From Bacteroidia bacterium (GTDB lineage: Bacteria > Bacteroidota > Bacteroidia > B-17B0 > Aurantibacillaceae): DNA of 64,000 nucleotides. Positions 8,441-24,583 of the stretch are shown in pieces (within the stretch, counting starts at the first letter, position 1; each line of letters starts with the position of its first letter). The translations under genes were made by a program, and so were the position numbers. A model generated the notes under the pieces. It searched no databases and was not told where the DNA came from. It saw nothing but the letters and a program-made list of their open reading frames with translations. Where the stretch lies: contig JALHRL010000009.1 in NCBI GenBank assembly GCA_022841465.1, positions 62,001 to 126,000 of the forward strand, read 5' to 3'.

Positions 8441-9397
8441 CTAATACTTCACAATTTTCTTAACAGAACTTTTACCGTTAAGTCTTAGTTTAATAAAGTA
8501 AATTCCTTCTTCTAAATCACTAAGGTTAATTTCATTTTGTAATTCACTAATTACATCTGCATTTATTAATTTACCATTAATAGAGAAAATTTCGTAGCTC
8601 AATTTTAAATTATCAGTATTTTTTATGGTGAATTTATTTTCAAATGGATTAGGGTAAATACTTAAATTATTTAAATAGGCAACTTCATTAAGTCCCACTT
8701 GTTGCGATGTTGTAACATTATCAACCGCAAAAAATGCAGGTGTATTCATTCCAAATGCACCATTATCGCTAGAGTATAAATAAAAGCGAATGCTATCAAC
8801 TACTCCAAGACTTGAAGTGTTTACCCATTGCCAATTATCAACTATATAATCTAATGCATTGTTTGAGAAACGAAAATCGGCCAGGTAAAACTCAACACTG
8901 TCGTTTTTCATTACACCTGCGTGGTATGCTCTTATGGTAACTTTAAAAAAGTCGGGATCGTTACCACTTGTACCTCCAAATTTTTTGGCAAAGGCATCTC
9001 CTAGTAACATTGATTTGTAAGCATAGGTAGTATTAGTGATATAAAAACCGTCTATTGCATTGGTAGGCGAAATGGTTTTTATTAAACTGCGTTGTTGACC
9101 AACAGCAAACATATTAGAACTGTTATATCCGTTTAAAGCTTTTACGCCGTATAAATTACTAAAACCTGCAGTTGCAGAATCTTTAATGTTGGTGTAGGCA
9201 AAACCTCCGCTCCAAAAACTAAAGGAGGTGTCGTATTTGTGCTCAAAATAAGTGCCTGCGGTTTGAAAGCCAATGCTATTGGTGTTAGAGTAGGCGGAGT
9301 TAGCAGTTAGCATAAAGCTTTCAAAATCGGCAACATTTGTTTGGGCCGATGCAATTATTGAAAATGCTATACTTAAAAGGGTAATTGTTTTTTTCAT
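8441..9397 (-). CDS. DUF4465 surface protein with T9SS sorting domain (putative cobalamin-binding partner)
   Basis: This is a 318-residue protein with signal peptide MKKTITLLSIAFSIIASAQ, then a DUF4465-type domain (about 20-235) showing the family pattern SFWSGGFAYTNIKDS, SNMFAVG, GLYITNTTYAYKSM-like and DSVEFYLADFR. A T9SS sorting domain follows (SIYPNPFENKFTIKN to EEGIYFIKLRLNGKSS). The ATG overlaps the stop of the BtuB-like receptor (ATGA), so translation is coupled, and the pair sits behind a cobalamin riboswitch. From memory, DUF4465 includes the BtuH surface B12-binding proteins of gut Bacteroides; that, plus the context, suggests a B12-capture protein. The gut versions are lipoproteins, whereas this one uses T9SS. 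The function is inferred. Confidence 0.78.
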   Translation of the reverse strand: MKKTITLLSIAFSIIASAQTNVADFESFMLTANSAYSNTNSIGFQTAGTYFEHKYDTSFSFWSGGFAYTNIKDSATAGFSNLYGVKALNGYNSSNMFAVGQQRSLIKTISPTNAIDGFYITNTTYAYKSMLLGDAFAKKFGGTSGNDPDFFKVTIRAYHAGVMKNDSVEFYLADFRFSNNALDYIVDNWQWVNTSSLGVVDSIRFYLYSSDNGAFGMNTPAFFAVDNVTTSQQVGLNEVAYLNNLSIYPNPFENKFTIKNTDNLKLSYEIFSINGKLINADVISELQNEINLSDLEEGIYFIKLRLNGKSSVKKIVKY

Positions 9398-11355
9398 GAT
9401 TTGTTTGGGTTTATAAAGTTAATAGAAATTCCGAATTCAACATTTTGTAATGGCATAGGGCGGTTATTAATTACTTGATAATTTGCATTTAGTAAATTAT
9501 TTAAATTGGCAAATATACCTAAGCGAATATTTTTTAACTGATGATGATACATGCCGCGTAAGGTAACATAATGGTAAGGCTCTAACCACTCGCTGTTATC
9601 GCTTGTGGTAAAACGGTAGCCTACATATTGATGAAAAATAGAGATTACAAAATTTTGATAACGTACGTTGAGGTTGGTGTTGTAATTGTAACGAGGGGTA
9701 TAAATTAATTGTTTATCAATTGAATTATCGTTTTCTAACTGTGTTTTTCGGGGTGTAGAAATAACGTAGCCGGAGACAAATTTTAGTTGCGCTAAAAATT
9801 TATTTTGTTTAAATGTTAATTGGAAACTTGTTTCAGATCCTCGGCTCCAAACACGTTGTATGTTTTTTGGGGTAGCTATTCCTCCCGGTTCGGGTACCCA
9901 TAATATCCAATTAGTAATTACTTTATCAAAAGCGCTTGCAGAAACGAGTAAATTAATTTCATGATATTGTTTTTCAAATTCAATAGTGCCGTCGGTAGAG
10001 TAACCTTCTTCCGGTTTTAGGTTTATATTTCCTCCGGGGTTCCAGTATAAATCATTTAATGTAGGTAAACGATAAAGTTTGGCGCCATTTATTTTTAAGG
10101 TTAAATTTTTTACAGGCGCATATTCTATTCCTGAATTATATGTGTAAGGCATTTGTCCGGTGCTTGTTTTTTCTATTCTAAATGCAGCTTTGTAAATTAA
10201 TTTATTTTTTAAGTAAGTTCCTTTGTTGCCAATAATAGCGGCCAATCGTCCTAAGTCTTTTGTGTCGGAATAATTGTTGGTTACTGCCTGATTGTAGGTG
10301 TAATTGCATCCAAAATTCATCACCTGATTTTTTCTCCAGTTATAAAAAAAATCATTTTCAAGAATGTAATTACTCATTTTACTTCGGGAATCAATTTTTG
10401 TAATGCTGTCTTTATAATTTAATTCATCTAATAAAGCTGCGGCCTTTACGGTTGATGTAAATTTGTTTTTATAATAACTCCAGTTTAAACTAACTCTATT
10501 ATTGGCATCTGTTTGAGTGGCTTTGTAATTGCCAATACTCGGAAAATTTCTATTGTTTTTTGCAAACCAGGTTGACAGTGTTAGCGAATGGTTTTGGTTA
10601 ATTAGGTATTTTATCTCGGGAATTATCTGAAAATTTTCGTAAGCCGATTGTTTTTGTGTTTTATAGGTTTCTGAATAAATATCATAATAATTAAAATGAT
10701 TGTTGTTTCGAATGGCAAATGAATTTAGCTTAATGCTTAATTTATTTTTACTGTATGAAAAATGCGGAGAAACAGAATTTAAGCCGGTGTTACCATACAT
10801 ATATTGTATTCCGGTTTTTATACCTTCGTTCATTACATGTTTATTATTTAAGTGAATACTTCCGCCCACAGAACCGGAACCCCAGGTACTGCCTGAGCCA
10901 CCGTGTTCAATTAGCAAATCGTTAAATAAATTATTGGTAACACTGCTTAAATCAAACTGGCCCAACATGCTGTTTTGAATGTTTAATCCATTCCAAAGAA
11001 TGGCTGTTTGTTGCGCATTACCTCCCCTGAAAGAAGTGGTGCTAATGGAACCGGGACCATAATTTTTAATAAAAACCGGCGAGTTAAGGCTAATTAAATC
11101 AGCAAGCGTTTGATTAGAAAATAATTCGCGTGTTAATGAATCAATTGCTTGAACTTTTTTGCCAATACCTTCTGTATTTAATTTAACAACATTAATATTT
11201 ACTTCATATAATTGTAGAGTATCTTTGAATTGAGCATAGCCAACATTTGTACTTGCAAAAAGGCAAATAATTAAACGCAATAGAGCATTTACTTTTTTAT
11301 AAATATTTTTGTTCAATTTTTTTTGTTTTTTGATAACCTCAGGTCCCGAAAGCAT
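9394..11355 (-). CDS. BtuB-like TonB-dependent receptor (cobalamin uptake)
   Basis: This is an outer-membrane receptor of about 653 residues. A plug domain (about 60-190) has TLADLISLNSPVFIKNYG, TTSFRGGNAQQTAILWNG and GSGSVGGSIHLNN; a 22-strand barrel region follows to the C-terminus. It lacks the N-terminal carboxypeptidase-regulatory domain seen in SusC-type receptors, as BtuB does. A TTG lies at 11358, but the ATG at 11355 is the better start. The signal peptide (KKVNALLRLIICLFASTNVGYAQ) begins only about 20 residues in, so a still later start is possible. It is governed by the cobalamin riboswitch immediately upstream, which supports vitamin B12/corrinoid as the ligand. Confidence 0.88.
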   Translation of the reverse strand: MLSGPEVIKKQKKLNKNIYKKVNALLRLIICLFASTNVGYAQFKDTLQLYEVNINVVKLNTEGIGKKVQAIDSLTRELFSNQTLADLISLNSPVFIKNYGPGSISTTSFRGGNAQQTAILWNGLNIQNSMLGQFDLSSVTNNLFNDLLIEHGGSGSTWGSGSVGGSIHLNNKHVMNEGIKTGIQYMYGNTGLNSVSPHFSYSKNKLSIKLNSFAIRNNNHFNYYDIYSETYKTQKQSAYENFQIIPEIKYLINQNHSLTLSTWFAKNNRNFPSIGNYKATQTDANNRVSLNWSYYKNKFTSTVKAAALLDELNYKDSITKIDSRSKMSNYILENDFFYNWRKNQVMNFGCNYTYNQAVTNNYSDTKDLGRLAAIIGNKGTYLKNKLIYKAAFRIEKTSTGQMPYTYNSGIEYAPVKNLTLKINGAKLYRLPTLNDLYWNPGGNINLKPEEGYSTDGTIEFEKQYHEINLLVSASAFDKVITNWILWVPEPGGIATPKNIQRVWSRGSETSFQLTFKQNKFLAQLKFVSGYVISTPRKTQLENDNSIDKQLIYTPRYNYNTNLNVRYQNFVISIFHQYVGYRFTTSDNSEWLEPYHYVTLRGMYHHQLKNIRLGIFANLNNLLNANYQVINNRPMPLQNVEFGISINFINPNKS

Positions 11356-11370
11356 CAAAATTATTGTTAT

Positions 11371-11510
11371 GGCAGGTCTTCTGACTTATCTCTTCCTGTT
11401 CGCCTTCCCGTAAAAATACAGTGGCATTGGATTGAACAGGTTTTTAAAGAGATTTACAGCAGCGGGTACTGTCAGCGATTTTCACACTGTTCCCTATTAA
11501 TCTTCCTTTA
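11371..11510 (-). ncRNA. Cobalamin riboswitch
   Basis: On the minus strand the core reads cagtgtgaaaatcgctgac, agtacccgctgctgtaaa, then ccactgta and gggaagg, and ends with the B12 box agtcagaagacctgcc. These are the conserved parts of the cobalamin riboswitch in the right order and spacing. It ends about 15 nt before the receptor ATG, which fits control of translation initiation when adenosyl- or other cobalamin binds. The 5' boundary is approximate. Confidence 0.94.
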
Positions 11511-11538
11511 TAATTAAAGAAAAGAACCAATAACACAT

Positions 11539-11546
11539 CAAATATA
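11539..11546 (-). promoter_or_regulatory. -7 element for the cobalamin riboswitch operon
   Basis: TATATTTG on the minus strand is an exact match to TAnnTTTG. It sits between the phhA stop codon and the riboswitch, placing the start of transcription about 25 nt before the aptamer. I do not see a clear -33 TTTG at the usual distance. Confidence 0.5.
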
Positions 11547-11551
11547 AGTAA

Positions 11552-12316
11552 TTATTTTAATTCATCGGAAACAAGTTTTGTGTTACAGTTAATTACTTGC
11601 TCTATCATTGGCAAGCTTTTATACAATTGATTAAATGATTCAATTACAAAGTATTTATCTTGTATTTTATCATTATCAAAAGGAGTATGCATAATTGTTT
11701 TAGCATCAAAAGGCAAATGCAGCGGTTGTTCGCTAACCGAATATTTGCTTTCGCCATGCGAGGAAAGGATGCCGGCACCGTAAATATTTAACTTGTTTTC
11801 GTTTTTAATTAAACCAAATTCAATAGTAAACCAATAAATTCGTCCAAGCATTTGAACTATTTCAGAATTATTTTTATGTTTTACTCCAAGCTTTCCAAAG
11901 GCTTCAAAAAATGCACTGAACTTTGGTTCTATTAATAATGGTACGTGTCCAAATACATCATGAAACATATCCGGTTCCGGTAAATAATCTAGCTCATTCA
12001 ATTTTCTTAGCCACGTTGTTGCCGGAAATTTTTTTTGAGAAAGCAACTGAAAAAAATCAGATTCATTTATAATTCCTTCAACAACTTCCAGTTGCCATCC
12101 TGTGGTTTTACTTAAAACTTCGTTCGTAATTCTAAAATCCGGAATTTTACATGCTGTAAATCCAATTTTTTCCAGGGCCAATAAATACTCTTGTGCAGCA
12201 AGATTTTCAAGTAATGCTAATTGGCGGTTAAATAGTATTTCCCATACGGTAAAGTCTTCTTTTGTGTAATTTTCATAAACCTGCTTAAGGTTTTGTTTTA
12301 ATTGATACGTTTTCAT
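11552..12316 (-). CDS. phhA: Phenylalanine 4-monooxygenase (phenylalanine hydroxylase)
   Basis: This is a pterin- and Fe(II)-dependent enzyme that hydroxylates phenylalanine to tyrosine. From the ATG at 12316 (MKTYQLKQNLKQVYENYTKEDFTVW) the protein is 254 residues, the usual size of the monomeric bacterial enzyme. A longer open frame exists upstream but runs through the attenuator, so the internal ATG is preferred. The iron-binding motif PDMFHDVFGHVPLL (two His) and the third ligand Glu in YWFTIEFGLI are present, as is the pterin-site segment DYLPEPDMFHD. It is preceded by a Tyr-rich leader peptide and terminator (12404-12522), which implies that its product tyrosine controls it. Confidence 0.95.
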   Translation of the reverse strand: MKTYQLKQNLKQVYENYTKEDFTVWEILFNRQLALLENLAAQEYLLALEKIGFTACKIPDFRITNEVLSKTTGWQLEVVEGIINESDFFQLLSQKKFPATTWLRKLNELDYLPEPDMFHDVFGHVPLLIEPKFSAFFEAFGKLGVKHKNNSEIVQMLGRIYWFTIEFGLIKNENKLNIYGAGILSSHGESKYSVSEQPLHLPFDAKTIMHTPFDNDKIQDKYFVIESFNQLYKSLPMIEQVINCNTKLVSDELK

Positions 12317-12403
12317 TTGTTTTTTTGTTTTAATTATATAGTTTATGTTATTTTCATTTTTGTTGACGCTCACTGCAACAGGGCTTTTAAAGTGTAATAA
12401 AAT

Positions 12404-12426
12404 AAAAAACCCGGCTGCGAACCGGG
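12404..12426 (-). terminator. Attenuator terminator upstream of phhA
   Basis: On the minus strand cccggtt-cgc-agccggg forms a 7-bp stem (one G-U pair), followed by TTTTTTATTTT. It lies 31 bp after the leader-peptide stop and about 90 bp before the phhA ATG, so it would stop transcription before phhA. Its 5' arm can instead pair with the leader-peptide segment (12466-12476): GAACCGG/CCGGTTC is 7 bp perfect, and TATG/CATA adds 4 bp across a 3-nt bulge. This gives a mutually exclusive antiterminator. Confidence 0.82.
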
Positions 12427-12456
12427 CGTATGATATTTTATAAAATAAGAATATTA

Positions 12457-12522
12457 TCAATAATGCATACCGGTTCCTTGCGATTTAGGATACCAATAAT
12501 AATATGCGTTCTTAATTAACAT
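12457..12522 (-). CDS. Tyr-rich leader peptide of the phhA attenuator
   Basis: This is a 21-codon open frame beginning MLIKNAYYYWYP and ending GMHY-stop. Four of its five Tyr codons (all TAT) fall at codons 7, 8, 9 and 11, with a Trp at 10; there is no Phe codon. It lies upstream of a terminator/antiterminator pair and phhA. A ribosome stalled at codons 7-11 would leave codons 16-19 (the antiterminator arm) free, so phhA would be read. A ribosome reaching the stop would cover that arm and allow termination. This is the classical logic of ribosome-mediated attenuation, here tuned to tyrosyl-tRNA. The peptide itself probably has no other job. Confidence 0.8.
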   Translation of the reverse strand: MLIKNAYYYWYPKSQGTGMHY

Positions 12523-12621
12523 TGCGCTAAATTAAACAATTTTTGGCAATTAAAAATTAACTGTTTAAAACATTGGTGCCATTTTTGAAATAAACCTTTA
12601 TATAACAAGTAATTTTAAAGA

Positions 12622-15552
12622 ATGCATTTACGTAAAGTTTCTATATTTTTTGTTTTATTTATTGTTGTTTTTTCTTCTTTTCAAATTAAGAACGAGCCCG
12701 ATTTTATTAAAATTCAAAGCAAGTGGGTTGATTCTGTTTTTAAAACCTTAACGCCTCGCCAGAGAATAGCGCAATTGTTTATGGTTGCAGCATATAGTAA
12801 CCGCGATGTAAAACACGTAAAAGAAATTCGTGAATTAATAGAGAATTATAATATTGGCGGTTTAATTTGGATGCAGGGCGGACCGGTAAGGCAAGCTAAA
12901 TTGGCTAATTATTATCAATTTCATGCTAAAACACCTTTAATGTATAGTATTGACGGTGAGTGGGGTTTATCTATGCGATTAGACAGTACTCCCCAATATC
13001 CAAAACAAATGACTTTAGGTGCCATTCAAAACGATAGTCTTTTGTTTTACATGGGCAGACAAATTGCAAAAGAATGTAAGCGGTTAAAAATTCACGTAAA
13101 CTTTGCGCCGGTGGCAGACATAAATAATAATGCAGCTAATCCTGTAATTGGCATGCGTAGTTTTGGCGAAAACAAATATAAAGTTGCAGAGAAAGCAGCC
13201 ATGTATATGCTGGGAATGCAATACGAACATGTGATGGCAAACGGAAAGCATTTTCCGGGTCATGGAGACACGGATGTGGATTCACATAAGGGATTGCCTA
13301 TTATTCATCACAGTAAAGAACGATTGGATACTTTGGAGTTGTTTCCATTCCGTTATTTGTTTGATAAGGGTTTAGCAAGTATAATGGTTGCACATTTAAA
13401 TATCCCTGTTTTAGATACAACAAAAAACTTGGCCTCTACGCTTTCTCCAAAAGTGGTAAACGAATTATTAAAGACAGAAATGGGATTTAGCGGGTTGATA
13501 TTTACCGACGCCTTAAATATGAAAGGAGTATCTAAGTTTTTTGAACCCGGAAAAGTAGATGTAAAAGCCTTGTTGGCAGGAAACGATGTTTTATTGTTTA
13601 GCGAAAATGTTGGTAAAGCAATTGATGCCATTGAACTTGCAGTTAGGAATAACGAAATAACACAAGAAGAAATTGATAGTAGATGCAAAAAAATATTACA
13701 AGCGAAATTTTGGTGCGGTTTAAACGAAAAACAGGAAATACCTTCACGTAATATTTATAGAGATTTAAACACAAAAGAAAGCCTTGAACTGAATAAACAA
13801 CTGGCCAATGCAGCAATAACTGTTTTAAAAAACGAAAATAATATTTTACCATTAAAAAGCACTGATACTTTAAAAGTTGCTGAAGTTTCTTTTGGAATTG
13901 AAAAGGCAAATGGGTTAAATGCTGTTTTAAAAAACGCCATGTATGTTGAACATTTTGGTTTAACGCACGATGCAAATTCTGAAAGCATAAATGAAATGCT
14001 AAAGGGTATTGCCGATAAAAATTTGGTGGTAATACAAATAAACAAATCAACAATGAAGGCGGCGGGTAATTATGGAATTAGTAATACAACACTGCGTTTA
14101 ATAGATTCGATTGCTGAAGTAAAACCCACAATTTTGGTATTGTTCACAAATCCTTATTTAATAAATGGTTTAAATTCTGTAAAAAAGTTTAAATCAATAA
14201 TTATTGCTTACGAAAATTTACCATCGTTAGTAACTGCAAGTGGTGAAGCAATATTAGGGTATTATTCAGCTAATGGGAGATTACCAGTAACTACAAAACA
14301 TTTCCCTTATAATTCCGGAATTACTACAAACCCCATACTTACAGAGGCAATTATAAATAGTGCAGAATTTAATAGAAGAAAGTTTGGAAAGGTGGATAGT
14401 ATAGCCTTGTTAGGGATAAATGAAAAAGCGTATCCGGGTTGTCAAATTGTTGCCATGCAAAACGGAAAAGTTATTTACAACAAATGTTTTGGAAAACACA
14501 CCTATGCTAATGATGCAAGAAAAGTAGACGAAGCGACAATTTACGATTTAGCAAGTTTAACCAAAATAACTGCCAGCGCCTTAGCAGCAATGAAACTAAC
14601 AGAAGAAAAAAAGTTTGATTATAAAAAAACACTGGGCGATTATTTACCTTACCTAAAAGGTACAGATAAAGAAAATATGGTTTTAGAAGAGGTATTAACT
14701 CATCAAGCAGGTTTGTTTTCCTGGATTCCTTTTTTTCTAAAAACCATGGATAAAAAAGGAAATTATAAGCCCGGTTATTATTCAAATAAAATGAGCGATG
14801 ATTACCCTACACGTGTTGCCAATAAGCTTTATGTTGTAAAAACTTTTAACGACACTATTTATAAACGAATAGTTGCAAGTAAAATTGAAACTCCCGGAAA
14901 ATATCTATACAGTGATTTAGGATATTATTTTTTGAAACAAATTATAGAAGATACTACCAAAACAAAATTAGAAGATTATGTTGCAGGATTTTATACTAAA
15001 ATGGGACTTGCTTTAACCTATAATCCATTACGGAAATTTCCTCTTCAAAACATTGCACCAACAGAAAACGATACCAAGTTCAGAAAACAAATTATTCATG
15101 GGCATGTGCACGACCAAGGTGCTGCATTAATGGGTGGAGTAGGTGGGCACGCCGGATTATTTGGTAACGCTTTAGATGTGGCTAAATTAATGACGATGTA
15201 CGTTAATTATGGCGTATTAGACGGAAGAAGGTTTTTAGACAGTGCAGTTGTGGCAGATTATATTGCGTGTAGGTTTTGCCCCAAAAACCGCCGTGCTTTA
15301 TGTTTTGAAAAACCGGAAGTTGATTCCTCTAAAGATAGTCCTGTTGTATCGGATTGCAGTTCTGAAAGTTTTGGTCACACAGGATTTACCGGAACATTTG
15401 CTTGGGCCGATCCAAAGAATAAATTAGTGGTAGTGTTTTTAAGTAATCGTGTTTTTCCGGATGCGGAAGAAAATCGTTTAGCAAAGCTTGGTATTCGCGG
15501 AAAAATTCATAAAGCCTTTTACGAAGCCATTAAAAACGAAACGCAGAATTAA
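12622..15552 (+). CDS. GH3 beta-N-acetylglucosaminidase / serine beta-lactamase-type hydrolase fusion
   Basis: This is a 976-residue exported protein (hydrophobic N-terminus, residues 1-22). Residues about 30-370 form a glycoside hydrolase family 3 domain of NagZ type: KHFPGHGDTDVDSH (about 208-221, with the catalytic His-Asp dyad) and the nucleophile Asp in GLIFTDALNMKGV (about 296). A GH3 C-terminal-like region reaches about 560. Residues about 590-970 form a beta-lactamase/transpeptidase-like domain with SLTK (SxxK, about 645) and YSDLGYY in the Y-x-N position, and HTGFTGT near the end. The family cleaves GlcNAc-containing muropeptides; the second domain may act on the peptide part. Such fusions occur in other Bacteroidota. 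Peptidoglycan turnover in the periplasm is inferred. Confidence 0.9.
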   Translation: MHLRKVSIFFVLFIVVFSSFQIKNEPDFIKIQSKWVDSVFKTLTPRQRIAQLFMVAAYSNRDVKHVKEIRELIENYNIGGLIWMQGGPVRQAKLANYYQFHAKTPLMYSIDGEWGLSMRLDSTPQYPKQMTLGAIQNDSLLFYMGRQIAKECKRLKIHVNFAPVADINNNAANPVIGMRSFGENKYKVAEKAAMYMLGMQYEHVMANGKHFPGHGDTDVDSHKGLPIIHHSKERLDTLELFPFRYLFDKGLASIMVAHLNIPVLDTTKNLASTLSPKVVNELLKTEMGFSGLIFTDALNMKGVSKFFEPGKVDVKALLAGNDVLLFSENVGKAIDAIELAVRNNEITQEEIDSRCKKILQAKFWCGLNEKQEIPSRNIYRDLNTKESLELNKQLANAAITVLKNENNILPLKSTDTLKVAEVSFGIEKANGLNAVLKNAMYVEHFGLTHDANSESINEMLKGIADKNLVVIQINKSTMKAAGNYGISNTTLRLIDSIAEVKPTILVLFTNPYLINGLNSVKKFKSIIIAYENLPSLVTASGEAILGYYSANGRLPVTTKHFPYNSGITTNPILTEAIINSAEFNRRKFGKVDSIALLGINEKAYPGCQIVAMQNGKVIYNKCFGKHTYANDARKVDEATIYDLASLTKITASALAAMKLTEEKKFDYKKTLGDYLPYLKGTDKENMVLEEVLTHQAGLFSWIPFFLKTMDKKGNYKPGYYSNKMSDDYPTRVANKLYVVKTFNDTIYKRIVASKIETPGKYLYSDLGYYFLKQIIEDTTKTKLEDYVAGFYTKMGLALTYNPLRKFPLQNIAPTENDTKFRKQIIHGHVHDQGAALMGGVGGHAGLFGNALDVAKLMTMYVNYGVLDGRRFLDSAVVADYIACRFCPKNRRALCFEKPEVDSSKDSPVVSDCSSESFGHTGFTGTFAWADPKNKLVVVFLSNRVFPDAEENRLAKLGIRGKIHKAFYEAIKNETQN

Positions 15553-23504: not shown

Positions 23505-24583
23505 TTATTTTGATTTACTTTCTGTAGCAAAAGGTAATCCATAATTATCATGGCCGCCATACTTTCCACAATTGGAACTGCGCGCGGTAAAACACAAGGG
23601 TCGTGCCGGCCTTCAACCGATAATTTTATTTCTTCACCGGAAGTATTTACGCTGTCTTGAATTTTTTTAATAGACGAAGTTGGTTTAAACGCCACATTAA
23701 AATAAATGGGCATACCATTGCTTATACCTCCTTGAATTCCTCCGCTGTGATTACTTTTAGTAATAATTTTTTCATTCTTTATTTCAAAGGCATCATTCAT
23801 TTCAGAACCTTTAAGCTTTACGCTTTCAAACCCGCTGCCAATATCAAAACCTTTTACCGCATTAATGCTTAACATGGCTTTGCCTAATTCTGCATGTAAT
23901 TTATCAAAAACAGGCTCACCCAAGCCAATAGGTGTATTTAAAATAACACATTGAATAATTCCTCCACAACTATCTCCTTCTACTTTTAATTTCTCTATAT
24001 AGGAAATCATTTCTTTTGCTTTTTCTGCATCAGGACAACGAACACTGTTTCTTTCTGATTCATTTAAATTATGTTTTGTATAATCCCCATCTATAGAAAT
24101 AGAGCCAATTTGTTTTACAAAAGCTTGTATACTTATATTGTGTTGTTTTAAATAAAGTTTTGCAATAGCGCCTGCAACAACTCTGCTAATGGTTTCGCGG
24201 GCACTACTTCTACCACCGCCACGCACATCTCTTACTCCAAATTTCTTTTCAAAAACAAAATCAGCATGCCCCGGTCTGTATACATCTTTTAATTTATCGT
24301 AATCTTTACTTTGCTGATTTTTATTTTTAATTATAAAACCAATGGGTGTTCCTAAAGTTTCATCATTTAATATTCCGGAAAGAAATTCTATTTTATCATC
24401 TTCTGTTCTGGGTGTGGAAATATTTGATTGTCCGGGCCTGCGTCTGTTTAATTCATTTTGAATAAAATCAAGATCAAGCTTCAATCCGGCAGGGCAACCA
24501 TCAATAATTCCGCCAATAGCCTCACCATGACTTTCGCCAAAAGAAGTAAGTTTAAATAAGTGTCCGAATGAATTCCCAGCCAT
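23501..24583 (-). CDS. aroC: Chorismate synthase
   Basis: This enzyme converts 5-enolpyruvylshikimate-3-phosphate to chorismate with reduced FMN, the last shared step to aromatic amino acids. The 360-residue protein has the family signatures: [23 protein letters not shown] (1), [30 protein letters not shown] (2) and [17 protein letters not shown] (3). Its stop codon overlaps that of the convergent T9SS gene by 4 bp. A -7-like TATCTTTG at 24595-24588 lies only 4 nt before the ATG, so the mRNA may have almost no leader. It is divergent from hutI. Confidence 0.97.

Follow-up and report, generated by a model that had tools for sequence, protein, structure and literature searches.

The gene for phenylalanine 4-monooxygenase (phhA) of this Bacteroidia bacterium lies behind a short, Tyr-rich open reading frame and a hairpin. 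This arrangement raises the question of whether an enzyme that makes tyrosine is itself controlled by tyrosine, and by what device. We analyzed the locus within a window of 64,000 nucleotides, the whole stretch of DNA under study, and compared it with phhA loci from across Bacteroidota. In all likelihood the element is a ribosome-mediated transcription attenuator, predicted to sense charged tRNA-Tyr and to control phhA.

Architecture of the phhA leader and its predicted switch

On the minus strand, the leader frame, an intrinsic terminator and phhA follow one another in that order (Table 1). As the neighboring gene upstream is divergent, the terminator can act only on transcripts running toward phhA. 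Rfam assigned no family to the leader element. No T-box or other riboswitch was recognized there, the sole Rfam match in the window being a cobalamin riboswitch (99 bits; 11354-11546, minus strand) directly 5' of a gene for a TonB-dependent receptor (9394-11358).

Table 1. Features of the phhA locus, in window coordinates
Feature	Position	Strand	Basis
Glycoside hydrolase family 3 fused to beta-lactamase-like domain	12622-15552	+	Divergent neighbor upstream of leader
-7 promoter box TAATTTAG, 7/8 to Bacteroidota sigma-A consensus TAnnTTTG	12527-12534	-	Sequence match
Leader ORF MLIKNAYYYWYPKSQGTGMHY (then stop), Tyr codons 7, 8, 9, 11, 21	12457-12522	-	Open frame ATG...TGA; counterparts in relatives
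Segment 1, Tyr-codon stretch, 5' side of preemptive hairpin	12487-12507	-	Fold
Segment 2 GGAACCGGTATGC, codons 16-19, partner of segment 1 or segment 3	12465-12478	-	Fold
Segment 3, CATA + CCGGTTC, at and just before terminator 5' arm	12419-12432	-	Pairing analysis
Intrinsic terminator stem-loop GCCCGGTTCGCAGCCGGGT, 8 bp	12409-12427	-	Fold; layout in relatives
T-rich tail TTTTTATTTT	12399-12408	-	Sequence 3' of stem
phhA, phenylalanine 4-monooxygenase, regulated gene	11552-12316	-	PF00351 and NF008877, both over cut-off

The first-pass annotation had described a 21-codon leader with its Tyr codons at the positions listed, and this frame was reproduced. The frame is short, and its repeated codons specify the amino acid that the pathway produces. 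A terminator stem between the leader and the first gene, also described, is present, although its spacer from the leader stop is 29 nt rather than the 31 claimed. The proposed alternative pairing proved real: a 7-bp helix (GAACCGG/CCGGTTC) and a 4-bp helix (TATG/CATA), separated by a 3-nt bulge, recruit the 5' arm of the terminator into an antiterminator. Beyond these earlier claims, segment 2 also folds back onto the Tyr-codon stretch. With this third helix, all three alternative helices of a full trp-type device are present. The preemptive hairpin exceeded its synonymous-codon shuffles in stability (mean z -1.1), and segment 2 was paired upstream with a probability of 0.73, compared to 0.52 in the shuffles.

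Folds were computed for the window locus. With no ribosome, the best fold contained the preemptive hairpin and the terminator. When a ribosome occupied codon 7, 8, 9 or 11 before synthesis of segment 4, the best fold was the 2:3 helix (-12.8 kcal/mol), a purely in silico result that assumes a ribosome edge 12 nt past the A-site codon. The earlier suggestion that stalling on these Tyr codons frees the antiterminator arm was thus borne out in silico. Once all of the RNA was out, the terminator-containing fold was the more stable even with the ribosome stalled (-16.3 versus -12.8 kcal/mol); antitermination must therefore depend on kinetics.

The promoter box provides a prediction for the transcript start. 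In 36 of 59 units, a sequence matching TAnnTTTG with at most one mismatch begins 12-14 nt upstream of the leader ATG, compared to 1-6 of 59 at control positions and two before phhA itself. A TTG peak at -35 (20 of 59 units) coincides with the expected place of the -33 element. One study places the Bacteroidota -7 box at -12 to -5 of the transcription start site (PMC9723704). With the box so positioned, a leaderless or nearly leaderless leader mRNA is expected. From the position of the box alone, we predict that the transcript starts at the leader ATG, hence upstream of 12426.

These parts and their complementarity, read directly from the DNA, suggest the following sequence of events. Transcription would begin at or a few bases from the leader AUG, and a ribosome would follow RNA polymerase along the leader. 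With ample Tyr-tRNA, the ribosome would run through. Segment 2 would be either covered or paired again with its 1:2 partner, the Tyr-codon stretch, segments 3 and 4 would pair, and transcription would end before phhA. With Tyr-tRNA scarce, stalling on codons 7-11 would melt 1:2 and free segment 2 to pair with newly made segment 3 (2:3). Terminator formation would be prevented, phhA would be transcribed, and tyrosine would be made from phenylalanine.

Recurrence across Bacteroidota

A first set comprised 60 relatives, including the genome itself, with full-length phhA in 13 genomes. All of these phhA loci except two (L006 and L008) have a short Tyr-rich frame with a terminator after it. We then added 80 loci from named genomes, 30 from a phylum-wide sample and 7 more. 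The Tyr or Tyr/His leader layout preceded phhA in 68 of 109 loci from class Bacteroidia versus none of 20 from other classes. No such leader was identified at the other 41 Bacteroidia loci by the criteria used. The layout was found in many Bacteroidota families, with different sequences. The first-pass annotation had made its reading depend on relatives, and in them Tyr frame, terminator and antiterminator pairing do recur together, in divergent Bacteroidota and in different letters.

To gauge chance, we used 103 non-redundant Bacteroidia phhA upstream regions, with expectations drawn from dinucleotide shuffles. Three or more Tyr in six codons of a short ATG frame were seen in 43 regions (1.9 expected), and four or more in 34 (0.17 expected). 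Counts this far above expectation indicate that the leader is not a chance occurrence. His runs were also raised (17 observed, 0.7 expected), and Phe runs were at expectation (6 observed, 7.9 expected). Across the whole genome, the Tyr-codon pattern was not richer than in a reversed control. The curated leaders use both Tyr codons (TAT 165, TAC 66).

The pairing with the terminator arm is specific to each locus. Among 55 Tyr/His units, pairing with the own terminator arm stood at -11.9 kcal/mol versus -8.8 with foreign arms (Wilcoxon p 1e-9, in counts that share ancestry among units). This comparison replaced a synonymous-shuffle test of the 2:3 helix, which was weak per unit (6 of 58 at 0.05) because the RNA sequence is for the most part dictated by the peptide. 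The 58 units contain 40 distinct pairing cores, which vary by lineage (e.g. GAACCGG, GGAATCGG, GGATTAGG, GGAATAGG and GAAACGG). Given this variation, the recurrent GTG/GIG near the peptide end is best read as the antiterminator translated into codons. From the opening codon of the run to the start of segment 2, the median distance is 30 nt (IQR 25.5-33), a spacing kept even in lineages where segment 2 lies past the leader stop codon.

The spacing of the hairpin bears on an alternative in which leader and hairpin act on translation: the ribosome's position would alter re-initiation or the accessibility of the phhA start, and the hairpin would be no terminator. In its favor, the distance from leader to phhA is short, and translation in Bacteroidota does not depend on Shine-Dalgarno pairing; such sequences are described as absent (PMC9723704). 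However, the units carry a T-rich tail after the hairpin. In the window, 29 nt separate the leader stop from the hairpin, and 92 nt separate the hairpin from phhA. At other loci, the gap between hairpin and phhA ranges over 4-114 nt, whereas the stop-to-stem distance stays within 17-41 nt (median 31 nt). We consider translational control improbable.

Still less credible is a functional small protein with an incidental terminator. Such a protein would fit the conservation of a frame encoding Tyr-rich peptides. Yet the peptides diverge among lineages: apart from the Tyr/His run and the positions dictated by RNA pairing, little is common to them, and their length varies from 13 to 34 aa. Neither Pfam nor NCBIfam assigns them to a family, and the pairing segment of some lineages is located past the stop codon. 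In a peptide search, the convincing matches were two phhA leaders only, from the genome itself (G000) and one other (G008); the five inspected weak matches with short frames were all in unrelated contexts. Attenuation of transcription remains the preferred reading. With leader and switchable terminator recurring across so many families, tyrosine-dependent switching is very probable, and the enzyme would very probably be switched on only when tyrosine is short.

Two sets of loci depart from the common form. One phhA match (L013, G027:C49:239713-240441) carries an in-frame TAA, with its leader and terminator still there. Three of the 41 Bacteroidia loci counted above as lacking a Tyr or Tyr/His leader (L129, L130 and L131) have phhA leaders with the alternative-helix layout and no Tyr/His run (e.g. 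MMNQTAKCFCLNIRPVVDGVGLYCRYGS); no amino-acid biosynthesis gene was recognized downstream of them.

Tyrosine supply and operon content

Phenylalanine hydroxylase in bacteria is usually regarded as catabolic. The control proposed here, which would extend over much of Bacteroidota, makes sense only for tyrosine synthesis. The first-pass annotation took the regulated enzyme to make tyrosine, and the equivalog match to NF008877 agrees: the gene behind the leader makes the amino acid that is putatively sensed. Prephenate dehydrogenase (TyrA, PF02153) had no match anywhere in the genome, which is rated 100% complete. In the absence of a detectable tyrA, PhhA is the sole tyrosine source recognized in the genome. 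Neither prephenate dehydratase nor the pterin-4a-carbinolamine dehydratase family was found in the genome, and chorismate synthase is present, in the window near 23528-24556. With TyrA and prephenate dehydratase missing and chorismate synthase in place, tyrosine probably comes from imported Phe via PhhA or from outside. Some phhA-bearing relatives gave weak PF02153 matches (20-28 bits), which are probably other Rossmann enzymes. Genetic data from the bacteroidote Echinicola vietnamensis show that the hydroxylase matters for growth without tyrosine (PMC7311316), and Echinicola loci in our set (L041, L072 and L083) have such leaders.

A pattern beyond the first-pass annotation emerged from the genes downstream. 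The genes hisH, hisA and hisF, named from translation resemblance and tblastn between loci rather than from a family scan, lie downstream of phhA in Cyclobacteriaceae, Roseivirga and some Marivirga. Leaders of these operons mix Tyr and His codons (e.g. MNPTPRTYVHHSYHFLQ). At least two His codons were present in 35 of 35 leaders with a his operon versus 3 of 28 with no his gene found downstream (Fisher 1e-14, a value inflated by the relatedness of the loci). Counting only His inside the codon run, the figures were 34 of 35 versus none. A PhhA tree indicated about four changes of operon type and only two well-supported independent pairs; independent pairs mostly agreed with the His rule and never ran opposite to it. 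Within Marivirga, two loci with a his operon (L081 and L087) have HYYYY leaders, and two with no his genes found downstream (L039 and L067) have TYYYYY leaders. In Fulvivirga (L057), a YYYYYYY leader precedes three consecutive genes: phhA, an aminotransferase gene and tyrA. Judged from these sequences, the codon run appears to track the products of the operon, Tyr alone or Tyr plus His. An attenuator responding to general translation slow-down (e.g. antibiotics) instead of tyrosine would open upon any stall inside the run, as this one would, but the specific enrichment of Tyr and the addition of His where his genes lie downstream make it the least credible reading of all.

The genome itself also holds a His leader. 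Its hisG (L154, G000:C25, 42696) is preceded by MNLKSHHHHISSNGKS, with an HHHH run and a terminator, and by TACATTTG at -12, a layout like that of the phhA attenuator. Among the sampled relatives with a hisG gene, most carry a short His-rich leader 5' of it. This second device, with run, box and terminator, is probably an instance of one general to the lineage. We consider it likely that Bacteroidia possess widespread, modular, leaderless attenuators whose run matches the operon: Tyr for phhA, His for his, and Tyr plus His for phhA-his, with one RNA sensing two amino acids. If so, a single RNA would sense two biosynthetically unrelated amino acids.

Comparison with known attenuators

Leader-peptide attenuation is classical. 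In the trp, his and phe attenuators of Proteobacteria, a control-codon run is likewise combined with mutually exclusive preemptive, antiterminator and terminator helices. The phhA device differs from these: it is predicted to sense Tyr (or Tyr plus His) and to act on a pterin-dependent hydroxylase, it is found in Bacteroidota, and its leader mRNA is apparently leaderless. In E. coli, the thr and ilv leaders carry codons for two or three amino acids in a single leader; the Tyr plus His leaders resemble them in this mixed run and differ in amino acids, genes and phylum.

The phhA leaders add to these a putative Tyr-sensing attenuator and a natural series of codon runs that follow operon content. 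The series offers a ready test of how attenuator specificity is gained or changed in bacteria that hardly use Shine-Dalgarno signals.

The leaderless form has a precedent in Sinorhizobium meliloti trpL/rnTrpL, whose transcript starts at the leader ATG (PMC7298713), as predicted for phhA. That attenuator differs in sensing Trp, in controlling trpE(G) and in belonging to an alphaproteobacterium. Within the phylum, leader-peptide attenuation was suggested for amino-acid biosynthesis operons of Flavobacterium psychrophilum, in passages that name neither phhA nor a Tyr leader (PMC9723704). A putative attenuator upstream of a Bacteroides pheA-tyrA operon is listed in PMC1173090. We found no published phhA attenuator in the literature searched, the scope of which excluded most subscription journals. 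The attenuator type is already known, the phhA/Tyr case is one for which we found no published account, and the Tyr/His hybrids are its most novel side.
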